Assembly (NCBI GenBank): GCA_030123805.1
Contig: JASJXV010000017.1
Location: 1 to 36,774 of the forward strand
Reading direction: 5' to 3'
From: Gammaproteobacteria bacterium
GTDB taxonomy: Bacteria; Pseudomonadota; Gammaproteobacteria; Pseudomonadales; Azotimanducaceae
DNA length: 36,774 bases
The notes under the pieces are model-generated. The model saw nothing but the letters and a program-made list of their open reading frames with translations, made no database searches and was not told the origin of the DNA. Made by a program: the position numbers and the translations under genes. Position 1 is the first letter of the stretch; every line of letters starts with the position of its first letter. Of this stretch, positions 8,657-36,627 are shown one piece after another.

Positions 8657-9026
8657 GAGAGTCGACCAGACAATCGCTATCCTTGTCTATTCCGAAAGGA
8701 CTGGCATGGCTAGAGGAAAGTCCGGGCTCCACAGGACGAGGTGCCAGGTAACACCTGGGGGGCGTGAGCCTACGGAAAGTGCAGCAGAAAATATACCGCC
8801 TAATACTGGCTTATCCCGTATAGGTAAGGGTGAAATGGTGTGGTAAGAGCACACCGCGCGTATGGTAACATTCGTGGCAGTGCAAACCCCACCTGGAGCA
8901 AGACCAAATAGGAATCCATTATGTGGTCCGCATCGAGGATTCGGGTAGGTCGCATGAGGTGTATGGTGACGTACATCCCAGATGAATGATTGTCCACGAC
9001 AGAACCCGGCTTATCGGTCGGCTCTC
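8657..9026 (+). ncRNA. rnpB: RNase P RNA, bacterial class A
   Basis: The catalytic RNA that trims tRNA 5' leaders, about 370 nt. Conserved elements are readable in order: GAGGAAAGTCCGGGCTCC (8704-8721), GGTGCCAGGTAACACCTGGG, GGTAAGGGTGAAATGGTG, GGTAAGAGCACACCGCGCG, CCAAATAGG, and the 3' block GAATGATTGTCCACGACAG followed by AACCCGGCTTATCGGTC. The ends pair as helix P1 (GAGAGTCGACC with GGTCGGCTCTC, one G-U). The GGTCGGCTC-type 3' strand and the E. coli-like order support class A. Ends are estimated from P1. No clear intrinsic terminator is visible in the AT-rich sequence just downstream. Bases 9027-9216 are otherwise gene-free. Confidence 0.96.
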
Positions 9027-9216
9027 AGTATATAAAATGAGTTATTTATTCCTAAATAGTCTAAAAACTAACACACTTAACAAGTTACTTTAAGTTTTAG
9101 TTGTATCTGGTTGTAATCACATCCGTTCCTGTGTATTCCTGATTTAAAGATGCAATTTTTTCGCTAAGTTATTGTGTTTAAAGACAAATTCACCTCTGAA
9201 ACGCTTTTCCTCTCAC

Positions 9217-29977: not shown

Positions 29978-31198
29978 TTAGCCACCGACAACCGCACCCA
30001 TTTGGAAGATAGGCAAGTACATGGCGATAATCAGCCCACCGATAACCACACCCAGAAAAGACATGATCAAGGGTTCCATCAAGCTGGTTAATCCGTCCAC
30101 AGAAGCATCCACCTGCTCTTCATAGTAGGTTGCTGCTTTATCCAGCATGGTATCAAGCGCACCCGACTCTTCGCCGATTGCGACCATTTGAATAACCATA
30201 TTTGGAAATACATTCGTCTGCTTCATGGAATAATTGAGTTGTACACCACTGGACACGTCAATCTTTATTTTCTGAATGGCGTCGAAATAGACCACATTGC
30301 CTGCTGCGCCCGATACTGATTCCAGCGCGTCAACCAGTGGCACACCGGCAGCAAACGTGGTTGATAGTGTGCGGGCGAATCTTGCAACTGCAGATTTGTC
30401 GAGGATATCGCCAATTATCGGTAATTTCAGTTGCACTCGGTCCTGAGCATCTCGTACGGTTTTGAATTTTTTATAGGCCTGCTTGTAACCAAAGATCGAT
30501 GCGGCGATACTAATCACGATGATTAACCACCATTCCTGCATCCACTCGGACATACCGACGACAAATTGCGTGAACTCCGGCAGTTCCGCACCGAAACCCG
30601 CAAAAATCTCCTCGAATTGCGGCACCACCTTTATCAACAATATCCCGGAAACTACTCCTGCTACGACCAATACTGCGATCGGATAGTTCATGGCCGACTT
30701 GATCTTGGCTTTCAGTGCCTCGGTTTTTTCCTTATAAGTTGCCAGTCTGTCGAGCATAGTTTCCAGAGCACCGGATTGTTCACCGGCATCAATCAGATTA
30801 CAGAATAAATCGTCAAACTGATCGGGATGGCTTCTAAGAGCAGAAGCAAATGTATTACCCGCTGAAATATCATCGCGAATTCTCAAAATCAGCTTCTTCA
30901 TCCTATCATTGTCGACGCCATCAGCGACAATTTCGAAAGACTGTACCAATGGTACGCCAGCTTTCATCATGGTCGCTAACTGCCGAGTAAAGAGAGATAT
31001 ATCCTGGGGAGTGATCTTCTTTCCCGCGGTGAGAAAAGACAGTCCGACAGACTTTTTCTTGACTTTCTTTGGGTTAATGCCCTGCTTGCGTAGCTGGGCT
31101 TTCGCTACGTTGATGTTTTTACTGGTGATCTCACCGTGGCTCTTGCGCCCGGATTTATCCGTACCTTCCCACGCAAATGTCTGACTGGCAGCAGCCAT
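29978..31198 (-). CDS. pilC: Type IV pilus inner-membrane platform protein PilC
   Basis: PilC/GspF-type protein, 406 residues from ATG 31198; an in-frame GTG at 31210 sits too close to the AGGAG site to be favoured. N-terminal FAWEGTDKSGRKSHGEI and LRKQGINPKKVKKKS are family hallmarks. Two repeated T2SF domains follow (LFTRQLATMMKAGVPLVQSFEIVADG and FARTLSTTFAAGVPLVDALESVSG), with three membrane helices. PilC is thought to couple rotation driven by PilB or PilT to pilin addition or removal. The retraction ATPase pilT is not in this window. Confidence 0.95.
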   Translation of the reverse strand: MAAASQTFAWEGTDKSGRKSHGEITSKNINVAKAQLRKQGINPKKVKKKSVGLSFLTAGKKITPQDISLFTRQLATMMKAGVPLVQSFEIVADGVDNDRMKKLILRIRDDISAGNTFASALRSHPDQFDDLFCNLIDAGEQSGALETMLDRLATYKEKTEALKAKIKSAMNYPIAVLVVAGVVSGILLIKVVPQFEEIFAGFGAELPEFTQFVVGMSEWMQEWWLIIVISIAASIFGYKQAYKKFKTVRDAQDRVQLKLPIIGDILDKSAVARFARTLSTTFAAGVPLVDALESVSGAAGNVVYFDAIQKIKIDVSSGVQLNYSMKQTNVFPNMVIQMVAIGEESGALDTMLDKAATYYEEQVDASVDGLTSLMEPLIMSFLGVVIGGLIIAMYLPIFQMGAVVGG

Positions 31199-31246
31199 CT
31201 TATAGGTCACTCCTCTCGTTCAATTCGAAAACATAGCATAGGGCCA

Positions 31247-32971
31247 CTAGTGTCCACTGGTTACACGTTCAACCTCAACAAGGCTCGTGAGCCCATTGAT
31301 AACTTTGACGATGGCAGATTGGTTAATATCATCGAAGCCTTCATTTTGGCATACTTCCGCGATCTGAAGTGAATTACCATCTTCCATAATAATTTTGGAT
31401 ATCTCCTTGGTAACTTTCACCACTTCATAGATACCAATTCGACCCTTGTAGCCATTATTGCACTTGTCACAACTAGCCGGGCCGTACACTTCAACACCTG
31501 CCTCTATCTGTTCTTCAGTAAATCCCTTCTCTAGCAGGGCGCTGTTTGGAACATCCAATAGCACCTTGCAATGCGGACACAGTCTCCTGGCAAGCCTCTG
31601 GGCGACGATCAGATTGAGAGAAGTTGCCAGGTTAAAAGCGGGAAGGCCCATACTACGTAATCGTGTAACTGTTTCCGGTGCGCTGTTCGTATGTAGCGTG
31701 GACATTACCATGTGACCGGTTTGAGCAGCTTTGATTGCAATTTCCGCCGTCTCCAGGTCGCGAATCTCTCCTACCATGATGATATCCGGGTCCTGACGCA
31801 AGAAGGATCTTAGTGCTTCACTGAAATCAAGGCCAACCTTGGTATTAATGGGACACTGATTGATGCCTTCAAGGTTGATTTCAATCGGATCTTCGGCGGT
31901 CGAAATGTTCAGCTCGGGCGTATTGAGTATATTAATTCCAGTATAAAGGGATACTGTCTTGCCGCTACCCGTTGGTCCGGTAACCAGGAACATACCCTGG
32001 GGTTTGTGCAATGCTTCAAGATATAAGTCTTTCTGATAATCCTCATAACCCAGGGCATCGATGCCCATTTTCGCACTGCTTGGATCGAGTAAACGTAAAA
32101 CTATCTTCTCGCCAAACAGAACTGGGAGTGTGTTGACACGGAAATCAATAGACCTGGTTTTCGACAGCTTCAGTTTGATTCGACCATCCTGCGGTACCCG
32201 GCGCTCAGAAATGTCCATCTGGGACATAACCTTAAGTCTAGCCGCAATTTTTCTTGCCAGGGTCACCGGTGGTTTCGACACCTCATGCAGAATCCCGTCA
32301 GTTCTGTACCGGACACGGTAGGATTTTTCAAATGGCTCGAAGTGTAGGTCCGATGACCCCATTCTGATGGCATCCATCAGCATCTTGTTGATAAATCTGA
32401 CGACCGGCGTTTCATCCGCACCGCTGACACTATCGTCTTCATCCGCACCACCACCCGGTTCATCCACCCCTTCCAGATCAATATCATCCAGCTCGTCATC
32501 GTCCAGATCACCCAAACCATCATCTTCTTCGGACGCCAGGAATGAATCGATAAAAGCTGAGAGAATGTTCTCTTCGACTAAAATCGGTTCAGTGTTCAAA
32601 CCAGTAGCAAACTTGATTTCGTCGAGTCCAATCAGATTTGTCGGATCGGCAACAGCGACAAACAGTCTATTGCCTCGGTGTATTAGCGGAATAGCATGAT
32701 GTGTTCGGACCAGCTTTTCTTCAACCAAATGGGGTGGTATCGCATTCCTGTCGAAGACCGAAAGATCGAAAAGCGGGACTCCGTACTCTTCTGATGCAGC
32801 ATTGGCAATTGACTTGGCACTGACCAGGCCATTTTGTACCAGATGCGTGACGAAAGGGGTTTTTGATTTTCTTGCCGCATCGGATGCAACCTTCGCGTCT
32901 TCGCTTTCTATAAGACCATCTGCCACAAGACGCTTGGCAAGCCCGCTTAGTTGTATTGGATTGGCAGCCAT
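31247..32971 (-). CDS. pilB: Type IV pilus assembly ATPase PilB
   Basis: PilB, 574 residues, the hexameric extension ATPase. The N-terminal MshEN-type domain (about 1-145) contains LAKRLVADGLIESEDA. A strongly acidic linker follows (about 148-187, mostly Asp/Glu/Gly). The GspE ATPase domain starts near VVRFINKMLMDAIRMGSSDLHFEP. Walker A is GPTGSGKT (332-339). Asp box and Walker B lie around DPDIIMVGEIRDLETAEIA. The C-terminal zinc site has CPHC and CDKC. It is first of the minus-strand pilBCD-coaE-yacG run and is divergent from the pilin genes. No strong ribosome-binding site is visible. Confidence 0.96.
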   Translation of the reverse strand: MAANPIQLSGLAKRLVADGLIESEDAKVASDAARKSKTPFVTHLVQNGLVSAKSIANAASEEYGVPLFDLSVFDRNAIPPHLVEEKLVRTHHAIPLIHRGNRLFVAVADPTNLIGLDEIKFATGLNTEPILVEENILSAFIDSFLASEEDDGLGDLDDDELDDIDLEGVDEPGGGADEDDSVSGADETPVVRFINKMLMDAIRMGSSDLHFEPFEKSYRVRYRTDGILHEVSKPPVTLARKIAARLKVMSQMDISERRVPQDGRIKLKLSKTRSIDFRVNTLPVLFGEKIVLRLLDPSSAKMGIDALGYEDYQKDLYLEALHKPQGMFLVTGPTGSGKTVSLYTGINILNTPELNISTAEDPIEINLEGINQCPINTKVGLDFSEALRSFLRQDPDIIMVGEIRDLETAEIAIKAAQTGHMVMSTLHTNSAPETVTRLRSMGLPAFNLATSLNLIVAQRLARRLCPHCKVLLDVPNSALLEKGFTEEQIEAGVEVYGPASCDKCNNGYKGRIGIYEVVKVTKEISKIIMEDGNSLQIAEVCQNEGFDDINQSAIVKVINGLTSLVEVERVTSGH

Positions 32972-33107
32972 GACTAGATGATCCCGACTATTGAATTGCT
33001 TCTGATTATGAATAGAAACTATCCTGATCTGGAAGTTTACCGCTACCTATCACGGGTGTCGATAGAGGGCATGTAAATTGCCGGGAAGTAACCGACGAAA
33101 GATCGAG

Positions 33108-33124
33108 GTGACAAAAATTGTCAC
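33108..33124. promoter_or_regulatory. Inverted repeat in the pilB-pilA divergent region
   Basis: GTGACAA (33108-33114) and TTGTCAC (33118-33124) are perfect inverted repeats around AAA, followed by TTTTTGACA. It lies about 140 bp upstream of the pilB start and about 180 bp upstream of pilA. The symmetry suits a dimeric regulator site. On the plus strand the T5 tract after it could also act as a weak terminator. The rest of the 331-bp gap contains no further gene. Confidence 0.4.
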
Positions 33125-33205
33125 TTTTTGACACAACGGCGGATAATTTCTTGGCAGAATCAGGCAAATCGTATAAAAATTGATCATAAGTCAGCTTTTA
33201 TTCTG

Positions 33206-33214
33206 TGGTATGAT
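33206..33214 (+). promoter_or_regulatory. Candidate extended -10 promoter of pilA
   Basis: TGG-TATGAT (33206-33214) is a good extended -10 element about 90 bp before the pilA start; the -35 region is poor. A sigma54 promoter, common for pilA, was looked for: GGCAGAATCAGGCA at 33153-33166 has GG and GC one base too close, so I do not call it. Confidence 0.35.
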
Positions 33215-33302
33215 AATTGCATAACTTTTACGGACATCTGCCAGTGGAATTTAGTCACTGCGGATGATCTTTACTAATTTTACATTTTTGGAGCATCTGC
33301 CC

Positions 33303-33740
33303 ATGAACGCGAAAAAACTACAGCAAGGTTTTACCTTGATTGAATTGATGATTGTAGTTGCAATTATAGGCATCTTGGCGGCCGTTGCCTTGCCTGCATA
33401 TCAGGACTACATCAAGACAGCTAATATGACCAAGGTGACCGCGCACTACGAAGAAGCCATTCGTTTGGCTCGAACCACCTATGTTAAAGGCAATGTTCAA
33501 CTTGCTTTGAACTTAACCAGCACTGTGCCAGTTGATGCGGCTGGCTGGATTGCGATCTTTAATCGTGGCGAAAGTTTAGCCCCAGGCGGAGGTCCCGCCT
33601 ATCTTGCTGCCGCTGCAGATGATACGCTTGGAGCGATAGGTGTTGTTTCCCCAGACGCCACACTGGTGACCATTTCGCGACCTGCCTACCAGGACTTGCT
33701 TGCTGATTCAACCCCTGTAGTTGCAGCTGATGAGATGTAA
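33303..33740 (+). CDS. pilA: Type IV major pilin-like protein PilA
   Basis: Type IVa prepilin of 145 residues. A short basic leader (MNAKKLQQG) precedes the PilD cleavage site G/FTLIE. The mature protein starts with the canonical [28 protein letters not shown] helix core, written here only as its class, with Glu5 present. ATG 33303 (GGAG 9 nt upstream) is chosen over an upstream ATG at 33264, which would give an atypically long leader. The mature protein contains no cysteine, so it lacks the C-terminal disulfide-bounded D-loop of Pseudomonas or Neisseria pilins. The globular domain is Ala/Pro-rich. It is divergent from pilB and ends in a strong terminator. Confidence 0.92.
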
Positions 33741-33764
33741 TCATCAGATTATTACAGCTTAAAG

Positions 33765-33795
33765 AAGGGTGGATCTTTTGATCCACCTTTTTTTT
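33765..33795 (+). terminator. Intrinsic terminator after pilA
   Basis: GGTGGATC (33768-33775) and GATCCACC (33780-33787) form a perfect stem with a TTTT loop, followed by eight T residues. It separates the transcript of the first pilin from that of the second, suggesting different expression levels. Confidence 0.92.
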
Positions 33796-33867
33796 GTTTG
33801 ACAGTTACCGCCTGAAACTGAATCATGCAAGAAAATTAGGCTCGTAGCGTAGCAGGAGGTTATGGTC

Positions 33868-34266
33868 ATGACTGAATTTCAAACCACCCGGTTTTCTAAT
33901 AAGGCCCGGGGATTCTCGCTTATAGAGTTGATGGTAGCAGCCGGTATACTGGCGATTATTAGTGCCATAGCGATACCTTTGTATACCGACTACATAGAGA
34001 CCGCCCGCCTGGCTGTGATGTCCACCAACATTGAAACTATCCGTTTGTTTGAGGAAGACTATAGATTGAGTGAAGGCACATATATTGCCGGAACCTATAA
34101 TCCGGCGGATCCGGATGCTGGCGGTGGCCTCAAAGCCGTATTAGGCTGGGCACCACGAACAGAGCAGGACACTATCACCTATGTGGTAGACAATGTTTCG
34201 GCCAGCGGCTTTAGAGTGACAGCGACCAGCAGCCAGGGCGACACCATTGCGAAAACCTACCCCTGA
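33868..34266 (+). CDS. Second type IV prepilin-like protein
   Basis: Protein of 132 residues with a longer leader (MTEFQTTRFSNKARG) and a prepilin peptidase site G/FSLIELMVAAGILAII. Glu5 of the mature protein is present, and TDYIETARLAVMSTNIETIRLFEEDYR continues the N-terminal helix in type IVa fashion. The start at 33868 has AGGAGGT at a 7-nt distance; ATG 33862 would be only 1 nt from it. The C-terminal domain is short, lacks cysteine, and is not recognisably similar to the first pilin beyond the helix. It could be a minor pilin, an alternative major pilin, or a pseudopilin. Position after pilA and near pilBCD suggests pilus function. Confidence 0.85.
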   Translation: MTEFQTTRFSNKARGFSLIELMVAAGILAIISAIAIPLYTDYIETARLAVMSTNIETIRLFEEDYRLSEGTYIAGTYNPADPDAGGGLKAVLGWAPRTEQDTITYVVDNVSASGFRVTATSSQGDTIAKTYP

Positions 34267-34426: not shown

Positions 34427-34687
34427 TCGCTTTTGATGTAAGCCATCTTTGCAATTGGCGTGTGAGTTGACCGGTTCTGCTGGGCGATATCGCAAGTTCA
34501 ATCTACCCCTTGCAAATCTAATTTGAATTGCTGAAGCGTCACCTGACTAGTGGTGGCGTAAACCGGCGTAGGGCGCTCGTGCATATTTCACCACTCACCA
34601 GTGTCATTTTGTCGACCCAGGGCAACCAGGGAAGCGTTTTCTTAGTAGAATGGCTTTGCATCCAGTCAAAATTAAATGGAGATTAGC
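34427..34687. other. Gene-free interval before the orphan ORF
   Basis: This 261-bp stretch lies between the inverted-repeat element and the small ORF. It contains the first copy of the 20-bp direct repeat and a short inverted pair AGTGGTG/CACCACT near 34550-34600. No credible coding frame, tRNA or terminator was seen. Confidence 0.5.
34477..34496 (+). repeat. Direct repeat copy 1 (with palindromic core)
   Basis: CTGCTGGGCGATATCGCAAG. It matches the copy at 34959-34978 at 19 of 20 positions. The centre GCGATATCGC is a perfect 10-bp palindrome. The two copies bracket the small ORF at 34688-34909. Confidence 0.8.
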
Positions 34688-34909
34688 ATGGTAGAAAAGA
34701 CAGAGATTAATTTGTATAAAGATCTAGGTTCCACCAATGCAGGTATGGCTCGGGGTTTTGCCGTTGCTGCTGTGTTAAATCTGCTCGATGCAGCTGCCCG
34801 TGGCGGAGACAAAACCAGCCTGATTGATGAATTGGGCGTGGCTGGAACCACTAATCGTATAAAGGTCATGGCTGACAAGATCCAGGAGGCGCTTAAGATC
34901 GAGGATTGA
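34688..34909 (+). CDS. Small protein of unknown function
   Basis: Frame of 73 residues from ATG 34688, with GGAG 6 nt upstream; an ATG at 34676 would add four residues but overlaps that site. I do not recognise the family. The sequence begins MVEKTEINLYKDLGSTNAG, has a small-residue helix (MARGFAVAAVLNLLDAAARGG, about 20-40), and ends in an amphipathic charged helix (RIKVMADKIQEALKIED). There is no signal peptide or clear membrane span. It is isolated between a MITE-like element and hipBA and is bracketed by direct repeats, suggesting accessory DNA. A good ribosome-binding site and balanced composition favour a real gene. Confidence 0.6.
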   Translation: MVEKTEINLYKDLGSTNAGMARGFAVAAVLNLLDAAARGGDKTSLIDELGVAGTTNRIKVMADKIQEALKIED

Positions 34910-34978: not shown

Positions 34979-35026
34979 GATAAGTTGATAAATTGAGTGA
35001 GTAATAAATCGCAAGACCCCATTCAC

Positions 35027-35044
35027 ATTACCGAGCGGGAATAT
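35027..35044. promoter_or_regulatory. HipB operator O1
   Basis: ATTACCGAGCGGGAATAT, an imperfect palindrome with half-sites ATTACCG and CGGGAAT around a 2-bp centre at 35034/35035. It is one of three related sites upstream of hipB. Confidence 0.7.
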
Positions 35045-35050
35045 CACCTA

Positions 35051-35079
35051 TTGATTTTGGGTAGATAGTTCATTATTTT
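35051..35079 (+). promoter_or_regulatory. Candidate hipBA promoter P1
   Basis: TTGATT (35051-35056) and TATTTT (35074-35079) are 17 bp apart. The -10 box overlaps operator O2, so bound HipB would block it. A second candidate, TTGTCC (35099-35104) and TAATAT (35122-35127), also 17 bp apart, overlaps O3. Confidence 0.5.
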
Positions 35080-35095
35080 CCCGAGCGGTAATATT
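35076..35095. promoter_or_regulatory. HipB operator O2
   Basis: TTTTCCCGAGCGGTAATATT, the same palindrome as O1 with its stronger half on the other side. Its centre (35084/35085) lies 50 bp from that of O1. It overlaps the -10 box of candidate promoter P1. Confidence 0.7.
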
Positions 35096-35122
35096 CGTTT
35101 GTCCAAGTCTCAAATTAGCGAT

Positions 35123-35144
35123 AATATTACCGAACGGGAATATT
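35123..35144. promoter_or_regulatory. HipB operator O3
   Basis: A 22-bp palindrome with half-sites AATATTACCG and CGGGAATATT around AA, one mismatch per pair of halves. Its centre is 49 bp from that of O2. It is the most complete of the three sites and ends 16 bp before the hipB start. Confidence 0.75.
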
Positions 35145-35160
35145 TATGAGGACACCTTAG

Positions 35161-35385
35161 ATGCGATTAACTACAGAGAAAATTGGCCACTTTGCGAAAA
35201 AAGTACGCAAGTATAAGGGTGTTACGCAATCTGATCTCGCATTAACATCCGGTACAGGTTTGCGATTTGTAAGTGACTTGGAGAACGGGAAGTCAACCTG
35301 CGAGATCGGTAAAGTTCTAACGGTTCTGCAGACTTTGGGCGTCAAGATCGAACTTACACTTCCACACACAACAGTGAGGGTGTAA
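35161..35385 (+). CDS. hipB: HipB-type antitoxin and transcriptional repressor
   Basis: XRE-family helix-turn-helix protein of 74 residues. The HTH spans about 7-60 (IGHFAKKVRKYKGVTQSDLALTSGTGLRFVSDLENGKS abbreviated by its ends), with GVTQSDLA and GLRFVSDLENGK as the two key helices. HipB proteins bind their own promoter as dimers and neutralise HipA by complex formation. GAGGA lies 8 nt upstream. The hipA start follows after 3 nt, the usual antitoxin-first order. Three palindromic operators upstream support autoregulation. Confidence 0.92.
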   Translation: MRLTTEKIGHFAKKVRKYKGVTQSDLALTSGTGLRFVSDLENGKSTCEIGKVLTVLQTLGVKIELTLPHTTVRV

Positions 35386-35388
35386 TCC

Positions 35389-36627
35389 ATGGCACGAACT
35401 CTGGACGTGTATCTCGATCGGAATATCATCGGCCACCTAACCCAAGATGAGGGTGGTCAGATGAGGTTTGAGTACGAAGAGTCATGGCTCAGAAATCCGG
35501 AAGCTATTCCTCTCTCTCAATCACTACCTTTGCGTGCAGATCGCTTTAGGCAGAAGGAGTGCCGGGGCTTCTTTGGCGGAACTTTGCCTGAGTCAACCAA
35601 CCGCAAGACCATAGCAAGAATCCTTGGCATAAGTGACAAAAACGACTTCGCAATGCTTGAGCAGATCGGTGGAGAATGTGCAGGTGCTGTCACCTTGTTA
35701 CCGGAAGAGAAATCAATTCCAGAAGCAGATAACAACTATAGGGATCTGCCTGATGAGGAACTTGCCAGAATTCTGCGAGAACTTCCCAACCGGCCGTTGA
35801 TGGTGGGAGACCATGGTATCAGGCTATCACTAGCTGGAGCACAAGACAAAATTGCTGTTCGGCTCGAGAATGGAAGGATATCGATTCCACTCGGCAGCGC
35901 ACCGAGTACCCATATACTTAAACCGGCTATCGCGACGTATGAAGGTGTAGTATTCAATGAGGCTTTCTGTATGGCTCTAGCAAAGGATGTAGGTCTTTCT
36001 GCCGCCTTGGCGACTATCGGGGGCATCGAAGACATCGACTACCTGCTCATAGAACGCTTCGATCGTCATAGGGAAGAGGATGGTCAGATCCGCCGGTTGC
36101 ACCAGGAGGATTTCTGTCAGGCCTTAGGTATTCCGTCAGAACTAAAGTACCAGGACGAGGGAGGTCCCACGCTTAAAGACAGCTTTGATCTCTTACGCGC
36201 TATCTCAAGTTCACCCGTCGTGGACCTGAGGGCACTACTAGATGCGATTATATTCAACATCATCATTGGCAATCACGACGCGCACGCGAAGAACTTCGCG
36301 TTGCTATACATGCCAGATCGAAGTACAACCCTCGCTCCACTTTACGATCTCGTTTCAACAGTGTTCTATCCAGAGCTAAGTGACAAGATGGCGATGAAGA
36401 TCGGTGGAGAAGGAAAGTCCTCGCTTGTCGTTCCGAAAAATGTCGAGAAATTCGCAAAGGATACCGGTCTTGCCGTCCCGCCAACGCTAGCACGCTTTCC
36501 AGCTCTTGCTGATGCTGTTCTGGCGTCGATCAAGGGAGTCGAAAAACCAAATCAGATTTCTGAAGAAGTTGCAAAACTAATCAGTAGACGCTGTGTGAGT
36601 ATCATTTCAAGTTTCAGCAACAGGTAA
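35389..36627 (+). CDS. hipA: HipA serine/threonine-protein kinase toxin
   Basis: HipA-family kinase of 412 residues, full length. The N-terminal couple_hipA/HipA_N part begins LDVYLDRNIIGHLTQDEGG. The Gly/Ser-rich phosphate loop SLAGAQDK (147-154) carries the likely autophosphorylated Ser147, equivalent to E. coli Ser150. The catalytic loop is GNHDAHAKN (294-302, Asp297), and the metal-binding Asp320 is in LAPLYDLVST. E. coli HipA phosphorylates glutamyl-tRNA synthetase and triggers growth arrest and persistence. The target here cannot be read from sequence. All kinase residues are present, so it is probably active. Nothing is visible in the 147 bp downstream. Confidence 0.94.
   Translation: MARTLDVYLDRNIIGHLTQDEGGQMRFEYEESWLRNPEAIPLSQSLPLRADRFRQKECRGFFGGTLPESTNRKTIARILGISDKNDFAMLEQIGGECAGAVTLLPEEKSIPEADNNYRDLPDEELARILRELPNRPLMVGDHGIRLSLAGAQDKIAVRLENGRISIPLGSAPSTHILKPAIATYEGVVFNEAFCMALAKDVGLSAALATIGGIEDIDYLLIERFDRHREEDGQIRRLHQEDFCQALGIPSELKYQDEGGPTLKDSFDLLRAISSSPVVDLRALLDAIIFNIIIGNHDAHAKNFALLYMPDRSTTLAPLYDLVSTVFYPELSDKMAMKIGGEGKSSLVVPKNVEKFAKDTGLAVPPTLARFPALADAVLASIKGVEKPNQISEEVAKLISRRCVSIISSFSNR

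Follow-up and report, generated by a model that had tools for sequence, protein, structure and literature searches.

The locus analysed here raises the question of what function three evenly spaced palindromes have in front of a hipB-hipA gene pair, and what holds them at such regular distances. They were studied in a contig stretch of 36,774 nucleotides from a draft gammaproteobacterial genome, referred to below as the window. The reading favored in this study, with a probability of about 0.8, is that the palindromes are autorepression operators of the local HipB and that the HipB-HipA complex sets their spacing, probably through HipA-HipA bridging.

Judged by domains, gene order and motifs, the two genes would form an intact hipBA type II toxin-antitoxin module. 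They lie on the same strand, with the antitoxin gene directly upstream of the toxin gene (Table 1). HipA of the window scored 181.5 bits for HipA_C and 90.7 bits for Couple_hipA, both above the cut-offs, and 100.1 against a cut-off of 27.8 for TIGR03071; no other Couple_hipA gene was found in the draft genome. The kinase motifs SLAGAQDK (P-loop), HDAHAKNF and PLYD are intact and align with E. coli HipA. HipB scored 26 bits for HTH_3 (cut-off 23) and 67 bits for TIGR03070 (couple_hipB, Y4mF antitoxin), for which the cut-off is 71.65, so that it is a clear relative of that family lying slightly below the formal threshold. A 77-aa reading frame (34676-34909) upstream of the operator region, ending about 117 bp before O1, had no Pfam or NCBIfam match at E 0.001. 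The module is adjoined by type IV pilus-like genes (29978-34266; pilC-like and pilB-like on the minus strand, two pilin-like on the plus strand), which were assigned by eye from translations, and a bacterial RNase P class A RNA (328 bits) is found at 8658-9029.

Table 1. Features of the hipBA locus and its upstream region in the window
Feature	Position	Strand	Remarks
Operator O1	35027-35042; 18-bp form 35026-35043	.	ATTACCGAGCGGGAAT; centre 35034.5; kept in relatives
First candidate promoter	TTGATT 35051-35056 / TATTTT 35074-35079		hexamers of the initial annotation, over O2
Operator O2	35077-35092; 18-bp form 35076-35093	.	TTTCCCGAGCGGTAAT; centre 35084.5; kept in relatives
-35 of conserved promoter	35099-35104	+	TTGTCC; TTG 23 bases after start of 18-bp O2 in relatives
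-10 of conserved promoter	35122-35127	+	TAATAT; begins 3 bases before 18-bp O3
Operator O3	35126-35141; 18-bp form 35125-35142	.	ATTACCGAACGGGAAT; centre 35133.5; overlaps conserved -10; kept in relatives
hipB	35161-35385	+	74-aa HTH antitoxin/repressor; HTH_3 over cut-off
hipA	35389-36627	+	412-aa HipA-type kinase toxin; HipA_C and Couple_hipA over cut-off

The initial annotation had described three palindromes as HipB operators of a type distinct from that of E. coli, and a direct reading of the sequence bore out their centres and their distances of 50 bp (O1-O2) and 49 bp (O2-O3). The palindrome pattern given there is matched with zero or one mismatch at each site, on one strand or the other, the ATT half of O2 being broken at its first base; all remaining matches in the window carry three mismatches. 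When an 18-bp consensus was derived from the operators of relatives (TATTMCCGNNCGGKAATA), O1 and O2 differed from it at one position each and O3 at none, and a scan of the window with up to three mismatches returned four matches against 0.32 expected. The distinction from the E. coli operator, TATCC-N8-GGATA, also held, with no site of that type at up to two mismatches between 31784 and the end of the window.

The palindromes were also looked for upstream of close hipBA homologues, and they were present. Relatives of hipB were found by a scan of genome contigs in 55 loci (56 with the window), from records titled Proteobacteria, Acidobacteria, Cytophagales, Verrucomicrobia, Nitrospinota, Armatimonadetes, Phycisphaerales and others. 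Three sites were present in 38 of these 56 loci, four in 4, two in 8, one in 4 and none in 2, the two site-less loci lying at contig ends, where just 24 and 1 bp precede hipB. The even spacing noticed earlier is real and strongly conserved, as 93 of the 96 neighbouring distances were 48-50 bp (48 bp in 2, 49 bp in 62 and 50 bp in 29), with 97, 101 and 134 bp for the other three. As controls, the initial 300 bp counted from the start of hipB contained three sites across the 56 loci, and shuffled upstream sets contained 1.5 on average. Given this conservation of sites and spacing upstream of hipB relatives, the palindromes are very probably HipB operators.

The same association was recovered without reference to genes. 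In a search for the paired motif with 35-65 bp allowed between sites, run on 369 genomes from the taxonomic class of the window, 14 genomes matched, and every listed pair was 48-50 bp apart; the backward-pattern control gave no match. A HipB-like HTH frame was beside or overlapping the paired sites in all 18 loci that were read. An operator-array class is defined here by two or more sites resembling TATTMCCGNNCGGKAATA that lie 48-51 bp apart in front of hipB, together with a HipA that falls in the 50-bp part of the kinase tree described below, and the window belongs to this 48-51 bp CCGnnCGG class by its sites, its spacing and its HipA. One exact paired-motif pattern had no match in viral contigs.

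Several unusual arrangements were seen among the relatives. Truncated hipB remnants lay beside surviving paired operators at 49-50 bp in L080 (genome G267) and L087 (G136), while in L090 (G240, about 2-1491) the paired operators and a HipB-like gene were followed, as judged by eye, by an ATPase-like frame in place of hipA. In L102, L105 and L108 an extra CCGTACGG site occurred about 20-35 bases past the predicted hipB start and 50 bp from the previous site, where it encodes Pro-Tyr-Gly-Asn of the predicted HipB; either the hipB start codon is further down in these loci or the operator is part of the coding sequence.

It could be supposed that the palindromes belong to a different regulator, or that a dispersed repeat came to lie here by chance, and the 3.49-Mb draft genome does contain 18 further places within one mismatch, compared with 10 for the backward pattern. 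However, 16 of these near-matches are inside open frames of at least 100 codons, no further site lies within 250 bp of any of the 18, and the paired sites in the 369 genomes occurred only with HipB-like genes, so that we regard this explanation as most improbable. None of the 18 scored above 14/16 on the 18-bp consensus. The genome search for a HipB regulon, which the initial annotation had proposed, thus gave no sign of one, the near-matches being single and mostly within open frames, and the idea was rejected.

Two candidate promoters had been placed within the array, one with its -10 under O2 and the other with its -10 under O3. Both have a 17-bp spacer and both are weak, with 8/12 each (the first by scan, the second by hand count); neither was listed by a stricter promoter scan. 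In an alignment of relatives on O2 and O3, 29 with 49-bp O2-O3 spacing shared a common TTG and gaTAaTATT running into O3, and in 17 with 50-bp spacing the -10 part was retained with a weaker -35 part, TAaTATT being kept at the O3 position in both sets. The second candidate of the window, TTGTCC/TAATAT, coincides with this conserved promoter. The hexamers of the first are present in the window, but they have no conserved counterpart, as no conserved -35/-10 pair was found between O1 and O2 in the 32 and 10 loci aligned, and the promoter over O2 was rejected for this reason. A mechanical promoter scan placed the best -10 at O3 in only 25 of 54 loci, and in the window it listed the first promoter as best, tied at 8/12. 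Since the conserved promoter falls at O3, this operator would cover the -10 and the probable start, and O2 sits just upstream of the -35.

The sequence of the operators was associated with the type of the HipB recognition helix, as far as can be read from sequence. All 56 HipBs of the close family carry RF(I/V/L)..(L/V/F)E.G in the recognition-helix region, and E. coli HipB is without an RF-type helix. Among 100 varied hip loci with arrays, scored by a uniform rule in which the RF-type pattern ends in GK, the strict CCGnnCGG core was present in at least one site in 24 of 29 loci with the RF-type helix versus 4 of 71 without it, and in at least two sites in 21 of 29 versus 1 of 71, relatedness among the rows being uncorrected in both counts.

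The spacing was also surveyed across the hip superfamily. Couple_hipA genes (TIGR03071) were sought in partly overlapping sets of 249, 289 and 274 genomes, and upstream DNA was taken for part of the listed matches; of 203 hip loci, including that of E. coli, 180 were usable and 23 were dropped for having no scored HipB or less than 120 bp upstream. A de novo test, in which a pair of similar palindromes with no assumed motif had to beat 100 of 100 block shuffles, detected arrays in 100 of the 180 upstream regions versus 5 of 180 coding controls; the 80 loci with no significant array by this test were left unclassed. The 184 neighbouring distances in the 100 array loci fell mainly at 26-28 bp (78) and 47-51 bp (66), with 6 each at 36-39 and 70-72 bp and the other 28 scattered, including 8 at 30-31 bp. 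Two successive distances were equal within 1 bp in 59 of 67 loci with at least three sites. With HipBs grouped into 48 clusters at 50% identity, the modal class was 26-28 bp in 21 clusters, 48-51 in 13, 70-72 in 3, 36-39 in 1 and other in 10. The operators inside the 50-bp class include CCGnnCGG, ATCGA..TCGAT, ATCCT..GGAT and TTTATC..GATAAA, and because one class holds such varied operators, the spacing is kept while the sequence drifts, as would be expected if contacts between the proteins of adjacent complexes determined the distance.

In the loci with 70-72 bp (L213, L236 and L241) the first toxin frame is HipS-sized, at 103-121 aa, and their spacing is in line with the 53-bp gaps and 18-bp sites of Legionella hipBST in the available portion of PMC10653801. 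Two observations count against this correspondence: L243, which is of the same kind (117-aa first frame), has a 31/43/28 spacing, and no array was detected in L132, L238, L244 and L271 (first frames 110-125 aa). At 10.5 bp per turn, 49.5 bp corresponds to 4.7 turns, 27 bp to 2.6, 38 bp to 3.6 and 71 bp to 6.8. The recurring turn fraction suggests that the classes have a rotated contact in common; the values drift, however, and the series is broken by arrays with 24 and 30-31 bp. A strict ladder of 10.5 bp was rejected and is kept only as a suggestion, as 27, 38, 49.5 and 71 bp agree better with increments of about 11 bp, and the 24- and 30-31-bp arrays do not fit.

One explanation of the even spacing is that O1-O3 are three independent HipB sites without cooperation, whose distances were passively inherited from a tandem duplication of about 50 bp, with only O3 repressing. 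Such a reading could draw on the lack of a conserved promoter between O1 and O2, and also on Legionella hipBST, where, in the sections of PMC10653801 available, HipB alone bound each of the three sites with no affinity difference seen, and intermediate occupancy was raised by the authors, in contrast with the cooperativity of E. coli. However, passive inheritance would permit indels, and the spacers are little conserved outside the promoter, yet 48-50 bp is kept across phyla and is shared by unrelated operator sequences. Independent sites therefore seem distinctly unlikely to us.

The spacing classes were then placed on a phylogeny of HipA kinases. In a tree of 59 kinases (31 of the 27-bp class and 28 of the 50-bp class), the spacing label changes only once, and this single change was obtained in 200 of 200 bootstrap trees, with a branch support of 100/99. 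The 59 kinases were taken from 96, leaving out 32 without a spacing label, four labelled as other and the long-branch L213, and for the window, 12 close relatives and E. coli the labels were assigned manually. With 79 kinases and five classes, four changes were required, which is the minimum possible, versus a shuffle mean of 29.9; this figure comes from a quick method with 20 divergent kinases added, their labels set by hand and long branches among them. In this wider set the sole 38-bp locus, about one helical turn shorter, is nested in the 50-bp group, and the four loci labelled as 31 bp form their own clade. Among the top 30 positions listed, residues 343-350, 188, 191, 195 and 196 of E. 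coli HipA were mostly present in the 27-bp kinases and lacking in all 28 of the 50-bp kinases, and several class-specific residues accompany them; together these are candidates for a bridging surface.

HipB also follows the same spacing split, and since HipB co-evolves with HipA, the tree alone cannot tell which protein sets the spacing. HipB on its own could possibly do so through HipB-HipB contacts or DNA bending, in accordance with its being the DNA-binding part and with its type tracking the spacing class. Nevertheless, about 50 bp is kept while the HipB helix type and the operator sequence change, and the roughly 31 bp free between 18-bp sites would be a wide span for a 74-aa protein; this explanation is considered rather unlikely. 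Bridging by HipA is favored because the spacing follows the HipA kinase clade while the operator sequence changes freely. HipA would also be a natural bridge because, according to the available text of PMC7029023, the hipA7 change of E. coli is believed to disturb the dimerisation of HipA within HipA/HipB/operator complexes.

In the mechanism proposed here, HipB dimers carrying HipA would bind O1, O2 and O3; O3, over the -10 and start region of the single conserved promoter, would block RNA polymerase, and O2 and O1 would raise occupancy cooperatively, with HipA-HipA contacts between adjacent HipB-HipA complexes fixing the distance at 49-50 bp. The three palindromes are well supported as putative operators of the local HipB, whereas HipB binding and repression at O1-O3 are what we infer from them, and contacts between neighbouring complexes by HipA-HipA bridging may, less certainly, impose the spacing. 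Legionella hipBST, where HipB was found by gel shifts to bind the operator arrays upstream of the genes (PMC10653801, sections available), speaks in favor of this reading of the sites. The initial annotation had suggested cooperative wrapping or looping of the promoter. Simple looping or wrapping on the same face fits poorly because 49.5 bp makes 4.7 turns, which puts neighbouring dyads off one face of straight DNA, but the cooperative part of the suggestion, in the form of assembly through HipA, is plausible.

A broader generalisation, to which we would give slightly less than even chances, is that each HipA kinase clade has a structurally constant hip operator spacing of its own (about 27, 50 or 71 bp, and rarely 38 bp, in steps of about one turn), fixed by HipA-HipA bridging, with the sequence drifting along with the HipB helix. 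As the array of the window is in the 50-bp class, the kinase toxin, and not the antitoxin alone, would then be the ruler of its own repression complex. A simple reading rule follows, in which the operator spacing predicts the kinase clade. As far as the available portions of the literature found show, the part of HipA in repression has been elucidated chiefly with the promoter layout of E. coli, and a layout that has nearly twice that spacing, is conserved in different phyla and goes with another kinase clade offers a natural second case. Changing the spacing would be a direct probe of HipA bridging, the contact thought to be disturbed by the hipA7 persistence change (PMC7029023, available text).

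Literature searches with the motif strings returned matches, none of them on hip genes, and none of the matches listed dealt with the window motif or with hip spacing classes, which is not proof of absence; operator spacing was not given in the available parts of PMC8262856, PMC11990009, PMC11487325 and PMC3434061. Promoters with three operators are already known from the hip genes of Caulobacter and Legionella, the novel element here being the strictness of the 49-50 bp spacing and its connection with a kinase clade. In E. coli, too, hipB is preceded by palindromes of 18 bp that end in TAT...ATA, the last of them near the start codon, and E. coli HipA aligns with that of the window over residues 7-324. 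However, the sites at hipB of E. coli K-12 are four exact matches to TATCC-N8-GGATA at distances of 28, 39 and 28 bp, compared with three at 50 and 49 bp in the window, the inner half-sites are TATCC rather than TATT(A/C)CCG, and E. coli HipA is on the opposite side of the spacing split in the kinase tree. The hipBA1 and hipBA2 promoters of Caulobacter crescentus resemble the window by description only, having three operators (PMC8545095) and identical inverted repeats at intervals (PMC7029023) in the text available from these sources. Legionella hipBST is alike in having three operators at even intervals in front of hipB, of which the closest is 24 nt from the start codon, but it is a three-gene module with 53-bp gaps, taken here as about 71 bp from centre to centre, and with a motif described as differing from earlier hipBA operators (PMC10653801, sections available).
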